The translations under genes and the position numbers were made by a program. Positions 4,805 through 12,244 of a stretch of 64,000 nt of DNA are shown one piece after another. The stretch lies in NCBI RefSeq assembly GCF_020102855.1, contig NZ_JADHZD010000006.1, positions 62,001-126,000 of the forward strand, written 5' to 3'. The first letter of the stretch is position 1; each line of letters begins with the position of its first letter. This DNA comes from Nocardioides lacusdianchii. Lineage in GTDB: Bacteria > Actinomycetota > Actinomycetes > Propionibacteriales > Nocardioidaceae. The notes below the pieces were generated by a model, which saw only the letters and a list, made by a program, of their open reading frames with translations, had not been told where the DNA came from and did not search any database.

Positions 4805-5521
4805 GTGTTGATCGAGATCTGGTCCGACGTCGTCTGCCCCTGGTGCTACATCGGCAAGCGCCGCATCGAGAACGCCCTGGCCGCGTTCGACCACGCCGAC
4901 GAGGTGGAGGTGCGCTGGCGCTCCTACCAGCTCGACCCCGGCGCACCCACCGAGCCGACCGAGCGGGCGGTGGAGATGATCGCCCGCAAGTACGGCCAGT
5001 CGGCCGCCGGCGCACAGCAGATGCAGGACCGCGTCGAGGCCGTCGCGGCCGAGGAGGGGCTGGTCTACCGGCTCTCGCAGACCCTCCACCTCAACACCGT
5101 CGACGCGCACCGCCTGATCCACCTCGGCCACGCCGAGGGTGGCAACGAGCTGCAGGGGCAGGTGAAGGAGGCGCTGCTCGCGGCGTACTTCACCGAGGCA
5201 CGCAACGTCGCCGACCACGTGGTGCTGCGCGAGGTCGCGGTCGGCGCGGGACTCGACGCCGCGCGCGTCGACGAGGTGCTGGCCTCGCGTGAGTTCGAGG
5301 CCGACGTGCACGCCGACGTCGAGCAGGCGCAGGCCTACGGCGCCAGCGGGGTGCCGTTCTTCGTCATCGACCAGAAGTACGGCGTCTCCGGGGCGCAGCC
5401 GACCGAGACGTTCACCCAGGTGCTCGAGCGGGCCTGGTCGGAGTCGCACCCCCAGATCGAGGTGCTCGCCGCCGGCGGCGACGGCGCCGCGGAGTGCGGC
5501 CCCGACGGCTGCCCCGTCTGA
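4805..5521 (+). CDS. DsbA family oxidoreductase (FrnE-like)
   Basis: A 238-residue thioredoxin-fold protein of the DsbA/FrnE family, likely a cytoplasmic dithiol-disulfide oxidoreductase because no signal peptide is present. Residues 1-30 give the first beta-strand and the CPWC redox motif (WSDVVCPWCYIGKRR). A helical insertion spans about residues 60-160, and the cis-proline segment is GASGVPFFVI near residue 180. The C-terminus ends in two extra cysteines (AECGPDGCPV), which may form a second thiol pair; their role is unknown. The start is GTG at 4805, directly before the first strand; no clear Shine-Dalgarno sequence is visible. The gene converges on the YdeI-like gene, 16 bases away. Confidence 0.9.
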   Translation: MLIEIWSDVVCPWCYIGKRRIENALAAFDHADEVEVRWRSYQLDPGAPTEPTERAVEMIARKYGQSAAGAQQMQDRVEAVAAEEGLVYRLSQTLHLNTVDAHRLIHLGHAEGGNELQGQVKEALLAAYFTEARNVADHVVLREVAVGAGLDAARVDEVLASREFEADVHADVEQAQAYGASGVPFFVIDQKYGVSGAQPTETFTQVLERAWSESHPQIEVLAAGGDGAAECGPDGCPV

Positions 5522-5537
5522 GGCACGGCCGAGGAGC

Positions 5538-6113
5538 CTAGGGGCGGGACTTCTCTCCCCGGGCCGCCTTCTCGGCCGTGGCGGCCACGCGCGCGGCCCG
5601 GGTCTCGGGACGCTTGGCCAGGACGACCCACGTCAGGATCATCTTCTGCGCGGCCGCCGACCACGAGTCCCAGTGCGCGCGCGAGCCCGGGTGGCGGTCG
5701 AAGGCCGCGGCCAGGTCGTCGGGCACGACGCAGTCCTCGACGGCGTCCATCAGCGTCCACATGCCCGTCTCCTTCGCCACGGTCACGGCAGCAGCACCGG
5801 CCGGCTCCATCAGTCCGGCCTCCTCGAGGCGCGCGACCCGGCCCTTGTTGATCCGCGTCCACATGCTGCCGGAGCGTCGTGGGGCGAACCACTGCATCGA
5901 GCGGTGCTCGTCGACGGGTCGGACGGTCGAGTCGACCCAGCCGAAGCGCAGCGCCTCCACCACGGCCGCCTCGTAGGAGAAGGGGCGGTCGCCGGCGCGG
6001 CGAGGGCTCACCAGCCACACCCCGGACGGCTGGGTGTGGTGGTCGCGCAGCCAGGCGCTCCACTGCTCGACCCCCGCCGGCTCGAGCTGCTCGGCGTCGT
6101 CCATCGCACCCAT
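5538..6113 (-). CDS. YdeI/OmpD-associated family protein
   Basis: A 191-residue soluble protein of the YdeI/OmdA (bacteriocin-protection) family. The N-terminal half has WSAWLRDHHTQPSGVWLVSPR and FSYEAAVVEALRFGWVDST. The C-terminal part has the family signature MWTRINKGRVARLEEAGLM, followed by the DUF1905/OmdA-like helix (WDSWSAAAQKMILTWVVLAK). Biochemical function in the family is poorly defined. The start is the ATG at 6113 because TACGAT on the minus strand (6125-6120) lies six bases upstream, the leaderless arrangement seen elsewhere in the window. An ATG at 6104 is the alternative. It is divergent from serA, with about 180 bases between. Confidence 0.85.
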   Translation of the reverse strand: MGAMDDAEQLEPAGVEQWSAWLRDHHTQPSGVWLVSPRRAGDRPFSYEAAVVEALRFGWVDSTVRPVDEHRSMQWFAPRRSGSMWTRINKGRVARLEEAGLMEPAGAAAVTVAKETGMWTLMDAVEDCVVPDDLAAAFDRHPGSRAHWDSWSAAAQKMILTWVVLAKRPETRAARVAATAEKAARGEKSRP

Positions 6114-6249
6114 CCGGTCATCGTAGGAGCGCCCACCGACAGCGGTGCGGGACCGACATGACGGGCCCCGCGACCTGAGGAGTGGGACGGGTTCGGCCCG
6201 CACCGGACTCGCGGGTAGTGTGGGCCGGGCACAGCGTCGTGCAGTCCCG

Positions 6250-6279
6250 GATCTTCCATGATCGTCCGTGATCTTCCAC
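6250..6279 (+). promoter_or_regulatory. Three tandem decamers upstream of serA
   Basis: GATCTTCCAT, GATCGTCCGT and GATCTTCCAC follow each other without gaps (6250-6259, 6260-6269, 6270-6279), ending 13 bases before the serA start. A 10-bp period places each copy on the same DNA face, as expected for a repeated protein site. The stretch also contains a 12-codon ORF (ATG 6258, stop 6294-6296) that overlaps the serA GTG as GTGA. Confidence 0.45.
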
Positions 6280-6292
6280 TGAGGAACCCGCT

Positions 6293-7888
6293 GTGAACGC
6301 ACCCGCCAAGCCCGTCGTACTCATCGCCGAAGAGCTGAGCCCCGCCACCATCGAGGCGCTCGGTCCCGACTTCGAGATCCGCCACTGCAACGGCGCGGAC
6401 CGCGCCGAGCTGATCCCCGCGATCGCCGACGTCGACGCGATCCTGGTCCGCTCCGCGACCAAGGTCGACGCCGAGGCCCTCGCCGCGGCAGCGAAGCTCA
6501 AGGTCGTCGCCCGCGCCGGCGTCGGCCTCGACAACGTCGACGTCAAGGCCTCCACCCAGGCCGGCGTGATGGTCGTCAACGCGCCGACCTCCAACATCGT
6601 CAGCGCCGCCGAGCTCGCCGTCGCGCTGATGCTCGCCGCGGCCCGCCACATCAGCCCCGCGCACGCGGCGCTGAAGAACGGCGAGTGGAAGCGCTCGAAG
6701 TACACCGGCATCGAGCTCTACGAGAAGACCGTCGGCATCGTCGGCCTCGGCCGCATCGGCGTCCTGGTCGCCCAGCGCCTCAGCGCCTTCGGCATGAAGG
6801 TCATCGCCTACGACCCCTACGTCCAGGCCGGCCGCGCCGCGCAGATGGGCGTACGCCTCGTCGACCTCGACACGCTGCTCGCGGAGTCGGACTTCATGAG
6901 CGTGCACCTGCCCAAGACCCCCGAGACCGTCGGCCTCATCGGCGCCGAGCAGCTCGCCGCCGCCAAGCAGAGCCTCGTGCTGGTCAACGCAGCCCGCGGC
7001 GGCATCGTCGACGAGGCCGCCCTCTACGACGCCCTCAAGACCGGCCAGATCGCCGCCGCCGGCCTCGACGTCTTCGCCAGCGAGCCCTGCACCGACAGCC
7101 CGCTCTTCGAGCTGGAGAACGTCGTCGCCACGCCCCACCTCGGGGCGTCCACCGACGAGGCGCAGGAGAAGGCCGGCATCGCGGTGGCCCGCTCGGTGCG
7201 CCTCGCGCTCAGCGGCGAGCTCGTGCCCGACGCGGTGAACGTCCAGGGTGGCGTCATCGCCGAGGACGTACGCCCCGGCATCCCGCTGACCGAGAAGCTC
7301 GGCCGCGTCTTCACCGCGCTGGCCGGCGAGGTCGCGAGCGCGCTCGACGTGGAGGTGCGCGGCGAGATCACCGAGTACGACGTCAAGGTGCTCGAGCTGG
7401 CCGCACTCAAGGGCGTCTTCGCCGACATCGTCGAGGAGCAGGTCTCCTACGTCAACGCGCCGCTCCTCGCCGCCGAGCGTGGCACCGAGGTGCGCCTGGT
7501 GACGGAGTCGGAGAGCCCCGACCACCGCAACCTGATCACGCTGCGCGGCACGCTCGCCGACGGCACCCAGGTCTCCGTGAGCGGAACCCTCGTGGGTCTC
7601 GCGCAGAAGGAGCGCCTGGTCGAGGTCAACGGCTTCGACGTCGACATCGAGCCCACCACCCACCTGGCCTTCCTCACCTACGAGGACCGTCCGGGCATGG
7701 TCGGCACCGTCGGCGGCATCCTCGGCGCAGCCTCGGTCAACATCGCCGGCATGCAGGTGTCGCGCCAGGACAAGGGCGGCGCCGCCCTCGTCGCGCTCAG
7801 CGTCGACTCGGCCATCCCGGCCGAGACGCTGGCCGAGATCGAGACGGCCATGCAGGCCGCCTCGGTGCGCGCGGTCGACCTGACCTGA
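6293..7888 (+). CDS. serA: D-3-phosphoglycerate dehydrogenase
   Basis: NAD-dependent enzyme that oxidises 3-phosphoglycerate, the first step of serine synthesis. At 531 residues it is the long type with four parts: a split substrate-binding domain, a Rossmann domain (TVGIVGLGRIGVLVAQRL near residues 146-163), the intervening (ASB) domain and a C-terminal ACT domain (HLAFLTYEDRPGMVGTVG). This architecture supports serine feedback control. The catalytic Arg-Glu-His set is in the usual places (RAGVGLDNVD, NAARGGIVDE, ATPHLGAST). The start is GTG at 6293 with a weak GAGG upstream. The stop is separated from the convergent yczR stop by a single base. A tandem decamer array and a short ORF overlapping the start suggest regulation. 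Confidence 0.96.
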   Translation: MNAPAKPVVLIAEELSPATIEALGPDFEIRHCNGADRAELIPAIADVDAILVRSATKVDAEALAAAAKLKVVARAGVGLDNVDVKASTQAGVMVVNAPTSNIVSAAELAVALMLAAARHISPAHAALKNGEWKRSKYTGIELYEKTVGIVGLGRIGVLVAQRLSAFGMKVIAYDPYVQAGRAAQMGVRLVDLDTLLAESDFMSVHLPKTPETVGLIGAEQLAAAKQSLVLVNAARGGIVDEAALYDALKTGQIAAAGLDVFASEPCTDSPLFELENVVATPHLGASTDEAQEKAGIAVARSVRLALSGELVPDAVNVQGGVIAEDVRPGIPLTEKLGRVFTALAGEVASALDVEVRGEITEYDVKVLELAALKGVFADIVEEQVSYVNAPLLAAERGTEVRLVTESESPDHRNLITLRGTLADGTQVSVSGTLVGLAQKERLVEVNGFDVDIEPTTHLAFLTYEDRPGMVGTVGGILGAASVNIAGMQVSRQDKGGAALVALSVDSAIPAETLAEIETAMQAASVRAVDLT

Positions 7889-7889
7889 C

Positions 7890-9350
7890 CTACGCGACCA
7901 TCACCCGGCCGGCACCTTCGCGGCGCGAGCGGCTCGACGCCGGCCGGGTGGTGGTCGACACGTGCTCCCACGCGCCGGCAAGTCGGCGTACGGCCTCGGT
8001 GAGGGTCTCCGGCGACGCGGTCCACGGGATCCGGACGTAGCGGTCGAGGCCGCCCTCGACGGCGAAGACCGGCCCGGGGGCGACCACCACGCCCCGCCGC
8101 TCGGCCTCGGCCGAGGTCGCGGTGCCGAGCGCCTCGGGCAGCTCGCACCACAGGGCGAGACCACCGTCGGGGACGCGGAAGCGCCACTCTGGGAGGTGCT
8201 CGCGCACGGCCGCCACCAGCGCGTCGCGCCCGGCGACCAGGCGCTCGCGGTGCAGGGGGAGCACCTCCTCGGAGTGGTCCATCAGGTCCGCCAGCACGAG
8301 CTGCTCGAAGACCGGCGCGCCGAGGTCGAGGCCGATGCGGGCGTGGATGAGGCGGTCCATGTCGGCGAGCGGCGCGCGCACCCAGCCCAGCCGAAGCCCG
8401 CCCCAGAAGGACTTGCTCGCGCTGCCGATGGTGATCGCGTCGTCGGCGTACGCCGCCAGCGGCCGCGGCATCGCCGCCGCGAGCCCGGGCGTGAGCGCGA
8501 GGGCCTGGTGCGCCTCGTCGGCGACCACCACCGTGCGGGTGCGGGCGAGCGCTGCGGCGAGCTCCTCGCGCTGCGCCTCCGACATGAGGTGGCCGGTGGG
8601 GTTCTGGAAGTCGGGGATCAGGTAGGCCAGCCGCGGCGACGACTGCCGCAGCGTCGCCGCGAGCGCGTCGAGGTCCCACCCGTCGGGGTCCACCGCTGCG
8701 GGGACCAGTCGCGCACCCGCGTGGCGCACGGCCTGGGTGGCGTTGGGGTAGGTCGGCGACTCGACCACGACGCGGTCGCCGGTGGAGGTGTAGGCCTGCG
8801 CGACGATGGACGCAGCGGCGAGCGCGCCGGCGGTGACCATGACCTGCTCGGGCACCGTCGGCAGTCCGCGGGCGTCGTACGCCGCCGCGATCCGCGCCTG
8901 CAGCGCCGGCACGCCGAGCGGGAAGTACCCCGGGCCGCTGAGGTAGGCCGGCAGCTCCTCGGTCGCGCGCTGGTAGGCCTCCACGAGCCCGGGCGGTGCG
9001 GAGTGCGCGGCGCAGTTGAGGTCGATGATGTCCTCGCCGCCGGTCCCGGGCAGGAGCGATCGGTCGTGGGCGCGACGCTGCCCGCCCGGCACGGTGGTGA
9101 AGGTGCCCGACCCGCGCCGCGCCTCGGCGTACCCCGCCTCGCGCAGCACCTCGTAGGCCCGCGTCACCGTCGTGCGCGAGACGTCGAGCGCCCCGGTGAG
9201 CTCGCGCTCGCTCGGAAGCCGTACGCCGATCCCGATCCGTCCGTCGCCGATGAGCACCCGCAGGCTCTCCGCGAGGCCGAGGTAGGCGGGGGAGCGGGGG
9301 AAGTCGCCGGCCAGACTGGCTACGCGCTGGGCACTGATCACCGGACTCAT
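7890..9350 (-). CDS. yczR: MocR-like transcription factor (GntR HTH plus aminotransferase fold), YczR type
   Basis: A 486-residue MocR/GntR-family regulator. The N-terminal winged HTH spans about residues 20-90 (LRLPSERELTGALDVSRTT is the recognition region, read as VRLPSERELTGALDVSRT). A PLP-dependent fold-type I aminotransferase-like domain follows. It keeps the PLP lysine in SASKSFWGGLRLGW and the NPTGH and DEAH segments, so it probably binds PLP as an effector site, not as an enzyme. It is divergent from a YczE-type membrane protein gene, the arrangement that defines the YczR subgroup. A 29-bp palindrome sits between them and is its likely operator, probably also for autoregulation. Start: ATG at 9350, 16 bases from that palindrome. 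Confidence 0.9.
   Translation of the reverse strand: MSPVISAQRVASLAGDFPRSPAYLGLAESLRVLIGDGRIGIGVRLPSERELTGALDVSRTTVTRAYEVLREAGYAEARRGSGTFTTVPGGQRRAHDRSLLPGTGGEDIIDLNCAAHSAPPGLVEAYQRATEELPAYLSGPGYFPLGVPALQARIAAAYDARGLPTVPEQVMVTAGALAAASIVAQAYTSTGDRVVVESPTYPNATQAVRHAGARLVPAAVDPDGWDLDALAATLRQSSPRLAYLIPDFQNPTGHLMSEAQREELAAALARTRTVVVADEAHQALALTPGLAAAMPRPLAAYADDAITIGSASKSFWGGLRLGWVRAPLADMDRLIHARIGLDLGAPVFEQLVLADLMDHSEEVLPLHRERLVAGRDALVAAVREHLPEWRFRVPDGGLALWCELPEALGTATSAEAERRGVVVAPGPVFAVEGGLDRYVRIPWTASPETLTEAVRRLAGAWEHVSTTTRPASSRSRREGAGRVMVA
7903..7949. terminator. Inverted repeat at the serA/yczR convergent end
   Basis: Perfect 11-bp arms ACCCGGCCGGC (7903-7913) and GCCGGCCGGGT (7939-7949) are separated by 25 bases. 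They lie inside the last codons of yczR, just after the serA stop. A terminator role for serA is plausible, but the long loop makes this uncertain. Confidence 0.35.
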
Positions 9351-9366
9351 GCAGGCCACTGTTCCA

Positions 9367-9395
9367 CGATTGGCTATGTCGGACAAGGCCAATCG
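9367..9395. promoter_or_regulatory. 29-bp palindrome between yczR and yczE, likely YczR operator
   Basis: Outer arms CGATTGGC (9367-9374) and GCCAATCG (9388-9395) are perfect, and an inner TGTC-G-GACA palindrome sits on the same centre (9381). Only the two base pairs between outer and inner parts mismatch. It occupies the middle of a 61-bp divergent intergenic region, so one bound dimer would affect both promoters. Confidence 0.7.
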
Positions 9396-9411
9396 CGTCC
9401 ATGATGGAGGC

Positions 9412-10089
9412 ATGAGCACCACGCCCTGCGACGTCCCCACCGGCACCGTGATCGCCCCCCGCGGCGGGCTGGTCGACCTCGGCCCGCTCGCGCAGCTGCG
9501 CGCCGGACGACTGGCGCGACGCCTGCCCCAGCTCTACGTCGGGCTGTTCCTCTACGGCGTCTCGCTCGCGATGATGGTGCGCGGTGCCCTCGGGCTCGCG
9601 CCGTGGGACGTCCTGCACTCCGGCTTCGTGCGCCACGTGCCGATGTCGCTGGGCCTGGCCGTCGTGCTCTTCAGCTTCGTGGTGCTGCTGCTCTGGATCC
9701 CGCTGCGCGAGGTGCCCGGGCTGGGCACCATCAGCAACGCCTTCGTCGTCGGCCTCTCCGCCGACGCGACGCTCGCCGTGCTCGTCGAGCCCGACGCGAT
9801 CGCGGCGCGCATCGCGCTCATGGTCGGCGGCGTGGTGCTCTGCGGGATGGCGAGCGCCCTCTACATCGGCGCCCAGCTCGGCCGCGGACCGCGCGACGGG
9901 CTGATGACCGGCCTGGCCCGTCGCACCGGTTGGTCGCTGCGGCTGGTGCGCACCGGTCTGGAGGTCACCGTCGTGGTGATCGGCCTGCTGCTCGGCGGGG
10001 TGCTGGGGATCGGGACCGTCGCCTACGCCCTCGCGATCGGTCCGCTCACGCAGCTGATGCTGCCGTGGTTCACCGTCGACCTGGACTGA
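9412..10089 (+). CDS. yczE: YczE/YitT-type integral membrane protein
   Basis: A 225-residue membrane protein of the YczE family with about five hydrophobic segments: LPQLYVGLFLYGVSLAMMVR, GLAVVLFSFVVLLLWIPL, a segment near residues 105-125, IALMVGGVVLCGMASALYIG, and a final one near residues 180-215. Family hallmarks include the GLGPWDVLH-like segment (here LGLAPWDVLHSG) and GPRDGLM between helices. The molecular role of YczE proteins is not established; transport or sensing at the membrane is a guess. The start is ATG at 9412. GGAGG lies only one base upstream, too close for a normal ribosome binding site, so the true start could be slightly downstream or the mRNA leaderless. Control by the divergent yczR is likely. 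Confidence 0.85.
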   Translation: MSTTPCDVPTGTVIAPRGGLVDLGPLAQLRAGRLARRLPQLYVGLFLYGVSLAMMVRGALGLAPWDVLHSGFVRHVPMSLGLAVVLFSFVVLLLWIPLREVPGLGTISNAFVVGLSADATLAVLVEPDAIAARIALMVGGVVLCGMASALYIGAQLGRGPRDGLMTGLARRTGWSLRLVRTGLEVTVVVIGLLLGGVLGIGTVAYALAIGPLTQLMLPWFTVDLD

Positions 10090-10092
10090 GGC

Positions 10093-11604
10093 CTAGCGTG
10101 CCGCCCAGTGCGCCGCGACCCGGGTCGCCGGCAGGGTGGAGTGGTAGATCGCGACGTTGTCGAGGTCGCCGTTGAACGCCGGGGTGTTGAGCCACCCGAT
10201 GCTTCCCTGCCCGACCCGCCAGAACCCGGAGTAGCTGAGCAGGGTGGACGTGGTGCCGCTCGCGACCGCGGCGCCGTCGACGTAGATCGTGGTGGCGCGG
10301 CCGGCCGTGCTCGTGACGACGAGGTGGTGCCACGCGCCGTCGTTGTAGGGACGCGGCGTCGTGATCGCCGTGCTGCGTCCGGGCCAGGTGCCGAAGGTGA
10401 GCCTCCCTGACGACTCCATGGTGACCGACCGGTCGGCCTCGGAGCCGAACAGCGAGTAGCTGGCGTCGCGGTCGTCCTCGAAGCCGGCGAGGTAGCTGCG
10501 CGACGTGGAGGTCGTGCGGAACCACAGCTCGATCGAGTACGCCGACGGCGCGGCGACCGCCTGCGTGCCGAGGACCGCCCGCCCGCCGGTGTTGTCGACC
10601 GCGGTGCCGGGGTTGCGAGGGAGCCCACCGGGGGTGCCGAGTTGGAGCGAGCCGTAGAACTGGCCGGTGCGGTTGTTGCCCGAGCGGTCGGCGGCGTAGG
10701 TGGCTCCGCGCGGCTCGTCCATCAGCCAGAAGCCGTACGGCGCGTCGGCGAGGACCGCGCTGACGTAGGGCTGCGCCCAGGGGCCGGCGGTCCACGTGGA
10801 CCCGCTGTTGCGGGTGTGGCCGGTGAAGCCGGCGCTGGCGGTCGAGGCGAGCGTGCCGACGACGACCAAGGAGGCCACGGCCAGGAGCGGGGTGCGCGAG
10901 CGGCGTACGCCGTCCCGTCCGTGCGTCGTGGTCGCGGACCCGCCCGGACCCGACGGCCGGCCGGAGCCGGACGGCCCGTCGGGAGGGGGACGAGGGGAGA
11001 AGCGGTCGCGGACGAGCCGCAGCAGCCGCCACCGCGGTGGCTCGCCCTCCAGCCTCCGGCTGGCGAGCGCGAACGCCGCCGCCGTCAGCAGCAGCCAGGC
11101 GGCCAACGGGAGCCACTGGCCGGTCTGGAACCACGTCACGGGCAGGCCGACGTGCGGGACCAGGAGCACGGCGGTCGCGCGGATGTCGCTGCGGGGGAGC
11201 GGGGTGACGTCGGTGAGATCGTTGGCGTCGCCCGCGGTGGTGTAGTCGCCGTCGTCGCGCAGCTCCACGATGCGGTGGACCATCAGGTGCGGTGTGGTCG
11301 CGGCGGGGGCGTCGTAGACGAAGACCCGCCCGACCCGGACGCGCTGGTCCTCGGTCCAGGGCTTGGCGACGACGACGTCGCCGACCTGGATGGAGGGCTC
11401 CATCGACCCGGACCGCACGACGTAGGACCCCCACCCGAGCACGACGGGAGCGACCGCGATGAGCGCCAGCCCGAGCAGGAACGTCCGGTACATCCGGGCC
11501 AGGAGCACCGCCGCGAGACGGGTCCAGTCGCGGACCTCCGACGCGTGCCGCGGCGTGGCGGCAGGGCGCTGGAGGTCCGCGTCGAGGACGGACGTGGCGG
11601 TCAT
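10093..11604 (-). CDS. SipW/ER-type signal peptidase I fused to a LamG-like domain
   Basis: A 503-residue fusion. Residues 41-63 form TM1. Residues 64-160 form an S26 signal peptidase of the SipW/ER type, with Ser in RSGSMEPSIQVGD (S67), His in MVHRIV (H110) and an Asp in AGDAND (D126 or D129) in place of the bacterial Lys. Residues 163-182 form TM2. A Pro/Arg-rich, probably cytoplasmic linker (about 183-237) leads to a third hydrophobic segment (238-258) ending in ASTASA, then GFTGHTRNSGSTW. From about 281 a concanavalin/LamG-like domain follows (YGFWLMDEP, then WHHLVVTSTAGR and IYVDGAAVASG). The FTGHTRNSG junction copies the one after the signal peptide of the upstream gene, so this segment looks like a SipW-type substrate within the protease itself. 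It lies 31 bases downstream of that gene in one operon. The domain calls are solid; self-processing is inference. Confidence 0.85.
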   Translation of the reverse strand: MTATSVLDADLQRPAATPRHASEVRDWTRLAAVLLARMYRTFLLGLALIAVAPVVLGWGSYVVRSGSMEPSIQVGDVVVAKPWTEDQRVRVGRVFVYDAPAATTPHLMVHRIVELRDDGDYTTAGDANDLTDVTPLPRSDIRATAVLLVPHVGLPVTWFQTGQWLPLAAWLLLTAAAFALASRRLEGEPPRWRLLRLVRDRFSPRPPPDGPSGSGRPSGPGGSATTTHGRDGVRRSRTPLLAVASLVVVGTLASTASAGFTGHTRNSGSTWTAGPWAQPYVSAVLADAPYGFWLMDEPRGATYAADRSGNNRTGQFYGSLQLGTPGGLPRNPGTAVDNTGGRAVLGTQAVAAPSAYSIELWFRTTSTSRSYLAGFEDDRDASYSLFGSEADRSVTMESSGRLTFGTWPGRSTAITTPRPYNDGAWHHLVVTSTAGRATTIYVDGAAVASGTTSTLLSYSGFWRVGQGSIGWLNTPAFNGDLDNVAIYHSTLPATRVAAHWAAR

Positions 11605-11635
11605 GGGAACGTCAGGGCAACGGGCGCGGTGCCGG

Positions 11636-12244
11636 TCAGTTGCTCTGCATCTCCCACTGCATGTCGATGCCGGTCTTGGCTCCCTGCATGGCGTCGACCT
11701 GGGCCTGGGTCATGCCCTCGGTGTCGAAGCGCCACGTCAGGCGGTAGGTCTTCGACGAGACGCCCGTGGGGACCGCCCAGCCGCCGAAGCCGGCCTCGAA
11801 GGTGTTCACCTGCGCGATGCTCGACAGGGGGACGTCGCTCACGTGGGGTGCGCCGACCGCGGCGAAGCCGGTGCAGTCGGCGAACGACCCGCCGTTGCCG
11901 GACTCGATGGTGACCTTGACCCGGTCCTCGAGCTTCGCGGTCGACGTGACGGGGTTGATGGCGTAGCCCTTGACGGTGCTCGGGACCGAGGCGTCGGCGG
12001 TGACGGTGATGCACTTGGTCTGGGTGTCGCCCGGCAGCATGTTGGCCACGCGGAAGCGGGCGGCGCCGTTGTCGTCGTCGGTCAGCTTCACCGAGCCGGT
12101 GGCCCACTCGTTGCCCGAGTTGCGGGTCTGGCCGGTGAAGGCGGCGTACGACGCCTGGTAGACGGACGCGCCGAGCGCGACGAGGGCGAGGGGGGTGGCG
12201 ACGACCGCGAGGACCTGGGTCGTCTTCTTGCCGGGGGACTTCAT
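11636..12244 (-). CDS. SipW-dependent-type exported protein (TasA/CalY-like)
   Basis: A 202-residue protein with a Lys-rich start (MKSPGKKTT), a hydrophobic stretch at residues 11-28 and a predicted cleavage around SYA/AF at 34-35. The post-cleavage sequence AAFTGQTRNSGNEWATGSV is the form typical of TasA/camelysin-like proteins that need a SipW-type signal peptidase. The mature part reads like a beta-rich domain (KLTDDDNGAARFRVANMLPG) with a pair of cysteines, in KCITVTAD and FADCTGF. Family members build surface fibres or biofilm matrix; that role here is inferred. The signal peptidase fusion is the next gene, 31 bases downstream, so enzyme and substrate are co-expressed. Start: ATG 12244 with GAAGGA upstream. 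The frame extends further upstream without family similarity. Confidence 0.85.
   Translation of the reverse strand: MKSPGKKTTQVLAVVATPLALVALGASVYQASYAAFTGQTRNSGNEWATGSVKLTDDDNGAARFRVANMLPGDTQTKCITVTADASVPSTVKGYAINPVTSTAKLEDRVKVTIESGNGGSFADCTGFAAVGAPHVSDVPLSSIAQVNTFEAGFGGWAVPTGVSSKTYRLTWRFDTEGMTQAQVDAMQGAKTGIDMQWEMQSN

Follow-up and report, generated by a model that had tools for sequence, protein, structure and literature searches.

In Bacillus subtilis, a phenylalanine at position P2′ of the TasA cleavage site blocks the housekeeping signal peptidase LepB, and the site is cut by SipW (PMC10269814). In the TasA fibre, mature residues 28–38 form the donor strand, whose hydrophobic anchors include F29 and F39, and a second SipW substrate, TapA, has an N terminus like that of TasA and acts as the fibre starter (PMC9674648, PMC10151520). 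Here we describe a recurrent and, apparently, so far undescribed variant of the SipW–TasA system, in which a SipW-type S26 signal peptidase is joined in one polypeptide to a predicted substrate of its own. A search of the open-access literature found no earlier description of S26–substrate fusions.

The window analysed here is a stretch of 64,000 nucleotides from Nocardioides lacusdianchii (contig NZ_JADHZD010000006.1, positions 62,001 to 126,000). Two open reading frames lie in it where the original prediction had placed them (Table 1): a gene for a TasA-like protein and, after a spacer of 31 nt, a downstream gene that joins an S26 enzyme to a LamG domain; roughly 30 genomes of this family preserve it as a single open reading frame. 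The fusion is the sole SipW-type S26 enzyme of this genome, which has one LepB (C47:174720). A scan for promoters and terminators found none, a result of little weight at 73% GC. The fusion is flanked by genes for YczR (a MocR-like regulator, minus strand) and YczE (a membrane protein, plus strand) at window positions 7890–10089, the end of YczE lying 3 bp from the stop of the fusion gene; the YczR/YczE pair accompanies the fusion in close relatives of the window only.

Table 1. Features of the two-gene locus in window coordinates
Feature	Position	Strand	Basis or remark
TasA-like gene, 202 aa	11636-12244	(-)	SipW-class signal peptide
P3-P16′ of TasA-like protein, aa 32-50, SYA/AFTGQTRNSGNEWATG	12095..12151	(-)	disordered in monomer model
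S26-LamG fusion gene, 503 aa	10093-11604	(-)	SipW/SEC11-type signal peptidase and predicted exported LamG passenger
S26 catalytic domain, aa 46-160	11125..11469	(-)	TIGR02228; S67, H110, D126, D132
Second transmembrane segment (TM2), aa 165-181	11062..11112	(-)	hydropathy; AF2-model helix 164-181
Basic, poorly conserved, predicted cytoplasmic linker, aa 185-236	10897..11052	(-)	mean majority fraction 0.27
Third hydrophobic segment, about aa 238-255	10840..10893	(-)	predicted internal signal-peptide h-region
Junction P3-P16′, aa 256-274, ASA/GFTGHTRNSGSTWTAG	10783..10839	(-)	A258, F260 invariant in alignment A3
LamG / concanavalin A-like domain core, aa 340-497	10114..10587	(-)	PF13385 E 8e-21

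The upstream protein had been predicted to be TasA/CalY-like, and fold comparison by Foldseek and VIA bore this out. The body of its AF2 model has a pLDDT of about 90, and its best fold in the PDB is TasA (5OF2; Foldseek E = 8e-5; VIA Z = 10.2, rmsd 3.1, 141 aligned residues), with the TasA fibre (8AUR) matching as well (Z = 6.9). As modelled, the neighbour has the TasA jelly-roll fold. The sequence profile of the TasA-like protein retrieved one chance hit and no TasA from the PDB, although the fold search did find it, and the camelysin family PF12389 matched weakly (E = 0.015; 15.6 bits, below the gathering score of 22.5). Residues 7–49 of the monomer model have a pLDDT under 50 and are predicted to be disordered, which is compatible with polymerization by an N-terminal donor strand.

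The enzyme half of the fusion matches TIGR02228 over residues 46–155 (E = 8e-18; 64.8 bits against a cut-off of 51.85), and SEC11A and SEC11C in the PDB match the catalytic domain (E = 1e-12). Among the 55 fusions gathered in this work, S67, H110 and D132 are identical in all and D126 in 54, and the fusions have the catalytic serine and histidine (not lysine) and the conserved aspartate by which S26B enzymes are recognized. The catalytic set first proposed thus stands for S67, H110 and D126 and falls for D129, which is not conserved, whereas D132 is invariant. Against the Bacillus SipW equivalog NF046067 the window enzyme scores 46 bits (cut-off 190); judged by these profiles, it is SipW-like and not a SipW ortholog. 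The AF2 model of the whole fusion is weak (pLDDT 66), with residues 209–277, including the junction, disordered. One window-type fusion (L059:5992-7266, minus strand) retains the serine, the histidine, the third segment and the LamG domain but no longer has the GDAN motif or TM2; its predicted topology would be wrong, and the gene could be decayed or a product of misassembly.

At its other end, the fusion matches PF13385 (Laminin_G_3) with 75.2 bits, above the gathering score of 27.6, and the best Foldseek match of this passenger is domain 4 of the arabinanase AbnA (5HON, E = 3e-10); the passenger is a LamG domain and does not have the V-set Ig fold of TapA. A weak ‘TafC’ match (E = 0.014) leads only to papers under that name that are unrelated. 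Most window-type passengers are LamG domains. Other long cargo is found in loci L049, L050, L052, L053 and L058, of which L050 and L053 have Ig-like domains (Big_7/Big_13), and further cargos are RCC1 repeats (L167), a VanY-like end (L173) and a glycine-rich domain (L188). These exchangeable cargos suggest a modular display system, and the retention of the same junction across them speaks for the reading preferred below. One genome has two neighbouring fusions (L173:3672-6143 and 5516-7855, both on the minus strand), the second ending in the VanY-like D,D-carboxypeptidase; next to them is an unfused S26 that has a TasA-like gene of its own (10438-11653). Five loci (L166, L176, L181, L182 and L185) carry another type of S26 fusion, in which the motif PTRxxTxxxxxYTxxGTFxYxAPxxxGPVY, which to the eye resembles DUF5305, comes between a third and a fourth transmembrane segment; having no AxA/xF junction, these were excluded from the fusion set.

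A search for S26–LamG fusions with adjacent TasA-like genes, which the original prediction had called for, showed that the architecture recurs, with other cargos too: the 55 S26–passenger fusions lie in 54 loci of Actinomycetota (gene calls outside the window were made in this analysis). Within the family, a window-type TasA-like gene (E under 1e-30) is present in 33 of 246 genomes and is adjoined by a fused S26 in 31 of these; one of the other two is cut by a contig end. In the last (G202, L070:4138-5471), the TasA-like gene is accompanied by a stand-alone 165-aa S26, divergent, with no LamG within the fetched locus, and the passenger has probably been lost. A survey of the phylum (296 genomes, after which loci with long frames were read) yielded fusions from about ten more families. 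Carriers include Nocardioides currus, N. allogilvus, Pimelobacter simplex, a Marmoricola sp., Janibacter limosus and several Frigoribacterium, and, close relatives of the window excepted, the genes that surround the pair are unrelated. This linkage supports a predicted two-gene unit of the SipW-type S26 and the TasA-like gene.

The S26 tree contains nine fusion-state changes, six of them forced by supported branches. A single origin was considered and rejected (single clade, p-AU = 5e-5); because the fused enzymes do not form one clade, joining occurred several times, and the tree suggests that fusion was probably also lost several times. In unfused relatives, the TasA-like protein, the S26 enzyme and a LamG protein with its own SipW-type signal are encoded by separate neighbouring genes. 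The LamG signal is in the same dialect as that of the TasA-like gene in L061 and L060, and a LamG protein with its own signal also stands beside an S26 gene in L064, L069 and the Curtobacterium locus L141. Modules found joined in some genomes and side by side in others are classically taken to work together. Long LamG-repeat proteins with SipW-like signals (GTTALWRGTV, GTTALWTGSV and SAAIFTATIL) lie beside separate S26 genes in L086 and L116 (both Naasia) and L190.

In the fusion, the third hydrophobic segment is followed by ASA (residues 256–258) and then GFTGHTRNSGSTW, with a predicted cut between A258 and G259 (between positions 10831 and 10830) that places F260 at P2′ and W271 at P13′. In the fusion of N. 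currus (L071/L033), R stands in place of this glycine behind AxA. The signal of the TasA-like neighbour ends in SYA (residues 32–34), followed by AFTGQTRNSGNEW. Both window proteins share the P2′ phenylalanine and the P13′ tryptophan, and both sites, ASA/GF and SYA/AF, have the AxA and the aromatic P2′ residue of a functional SipW-type signal. The original prediction had seen here a copied FTGxTRNSG junction. The string is shared among the close relatives of the window, but elsewhere only a looser pattern holds, and as a conserved signature it was dropped beyond that group; nor is the junction a recent DNA copy, since the serine of NSG is encoded differently in the two genes (AGC versus TCG).

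By its own terms the prediction would have been refuted by homologues devoid of both the third segment and the junction; the homologues do not look like this, and the site-pattern statistics rest on the 53 fusions that have the two. P1 is alanine in 52 of the 53 and P2′ is aromatic in 50, counts that are partly by construction because the site score rewards P3, P1, P2′ and P3′. The independent tests are the P13′ count and the P5′–P16′ profile. P13′, which played no part in the choice of site, is hydrophobic (W/F/L/I/Y) in 94% of the 53. A position-specific scoring matrix (PSSM) was built from the N termini of the TasA-like neighbours only, with the same locus left out, and ranked all sites of each fusion protein: the fused junction came out on top in 52 of 53, so the block shared by both predicted sites is indeed above chance. 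Positions P5′–P16′ of this matrix alone put the junction first in 42 of 53 proteins, and first of 495 sites in the window protein. TIGR04088, the profile for SipW-type signals, matched neither window protein and only 3 of 42 fused segments (E up to 1), and was set aside as too insensitive a detector of the fusion class.

Passenger and neighbour N termini also go together by locus. Own pairs were closer than shuffled ones whatever the level of redundancy (p = 5e-5 for all 51; p = 0.001 for seven very distant S26s). With S26 distance controlled, a partial Mantel test gave r = 0.21 (p = 0.001), and p = 0.06 after near relatives were thinned to an S26 similarity under 0.5; relatedness inflates the counts, and the thinned tests are the more trustworthy. 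An independent fusion on another S26 branch (L069) has the junction ALWSDQATVGTSTISSG beside the neighbour sequence AFWSDSATVTGTTITTG, the classical SipW form; this protein (L069:6857-7861) combines TIGR02228 with a sub-threshold TIGR04088 match at residues 210–244, and its neighbours score above the TIGR04088/TIGR04089 cut-off.

We consider it probable, taking the reading as a whole, that the fusion is a SipW-class peptidase that carries its own substrate, is self-processed and supplies a TapA-like passenger to a TasA-like fibre. From the architecture, its conservation, the site pattern, the linkage, the repeated origin and the TasA fold, we infer cleavage (in cis or in trans), donor-strand use and a role in the fibre. 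TM1 and TM2 would keep the S26 domain outside and the basic linker would lead back inside, where the third segment would act as an internal SipW-class signal peptide that exports the LamG domain. The enzyme, in cis or by way of a neighbouring copy, would then cut A258/G259 and free the LamG domain, and would also cut A34/A35 of the adjacent TasA-like protein, the phenylalanine at P2′ diverting both sites from LepB. The freed ends would carry a common strand (F at P2′, W or F at P13′), the counterpart of the TasA donor strand. Because the post-cut block of TasA is its donor strand, the likeliest role of the passenger is that of a TapA-like minor subunit that initiates or caps a fibre built from the TasA-like neighbour, and its cargo domain may give binding to a surface or a sugar. 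The correspondence with the TasA anchors has mismatches: I32 is without a counterpart, and F39 is at P12′ in TasA, as against P13′ here.

How far the block reaches bears on its role. It could be a recognition or export signal only, cut by the fused enzyme, with the LamG domain released or held in the matrix and donating no strand; AxA and a P2′ phenylalanine suffice for SipW specificity (PMC10269814), and cargos as different as RCC1 and VanY need no common fibre role. We regard this as unlikely, given that conservation extends to P13′–P16′, past the usual signal-peptidase contacts, that the P5′–P16′ profile by itself locates most junctions (42/53) and that the second anchor agrees with the TasA donor strand. 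The original proposal that the protease recognizes the block is therefore kept for P3–P2′, which is likely to be the protease part; conservation as far as P13′–P16′ agrees better with the TasA donor strand (PMC9674648), and by this analogy the block probably has a second function in assembling the fibre.

The third segment might instead stay uncut, making the LamG domain a permanent outer tether that recruits substrates or binds a surface, and AxA-F a relic of fusion. Ligand binding is frequent among LamG domains, and the linker and segment are long enough for a plain anchor. Conservation (mean majority fraction) argues otherwise: the junction forms an island (0.54), whereas the segment (0.38) and the linker are variable, the pattern of a cleavable signal peptide and not of a structural membrane helix. 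A variable segment before a nearly fixed AxA/xF (P1 alanine in 52 of 53) is the opposite of what a structural anchor would show, and the junction persists through cargo swaps and repeated fusions, which makes a tether distinctly improbable. The 15 residues preceding the segment have a net positive charge in 46 of 53 fusions, in keeping with the N-in/out/in/out topology first suggested. The comparison supports the reading of the third segment as a signal peptide of the SipW class, its site predicted to be cleavable, and of the fused part as a substrate-like passenger.

That LepB, and not the fused S26, cuts the junction seems very improbable: the genome encodes LepB and AxA suits it, but P2′ is aromatic in 50 of 53 fusions, and 143 verified LepB sites are without P2′ aromatics, which slow processing (PMC10269814). 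Chance or generic signal-peptide resemblance can be practically dismissed: hydrophobic stretches with AxA are common, and the site score is attained at the end of TM2 in 14 of 53 fusions, but it is attained at the third segment in 48 of 53, as against 24% of composition-shuffled windows, and the leave-locus-out PSSM and the P13′ anchor contradict it.

If self-processing with a TapA-like passenger is correct, the locus would represent an unusual covalent link between an export enzyme and its product, with the passenger in fixed proportion to the protease, a natural route to one initiator or cap per enzyme. The wider idea that Actinomycetota repeatedly evolved a self-processing SipW-type class, with one donor-strand passenger per enzyme and exchangeable cargo, the passenger starting or capping TasA-like fibres at the site of processing, we put forward tentatively, as somewhat short of an even chance. 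The findings point to TasA-like donor-strand fibres across Actinomycetota, most of which the TIGR04088 signal model misses.

Among described systems, eukaryotic SEC11A and SEC11C resemble the fusion in the catalytic domain alone, having neither a fused passenger nor a dedicated substrate neighbour. The TIGR04088/TIGR04089 SipW-dependent-type signals are approached by the L069 fusion below threshold, and the models miss the FTGxTRNSGNxW form of Nocardioides. The sipW–bsaA operon of Clostridium perfringens and the sipW–tasA/calY operon of Bacillus cereus likewise pair SipW with a TasA/BsaA-type matrix protein (PMC7395162, PMC13082335), but with separate genes for enzyme and substrate. Common to the tapA–sipW–tasA operon of B. 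subtilis and our locus are an S26 enzyme of ER/archaeal type, dedicated to a neighbour that has the TasA fold and a P2′ phenylalanine, and a second, minor substrate (predicted in our case) with a common N-terminal strand (PMC9674648, PMC10151520). It has three genes where the present locus has two; here the predicted second substrate is part of the same polypeptide as the enzyme, and a LamG or other domain takes the place of the Ig fold of TapA, only the proposed role being similar.
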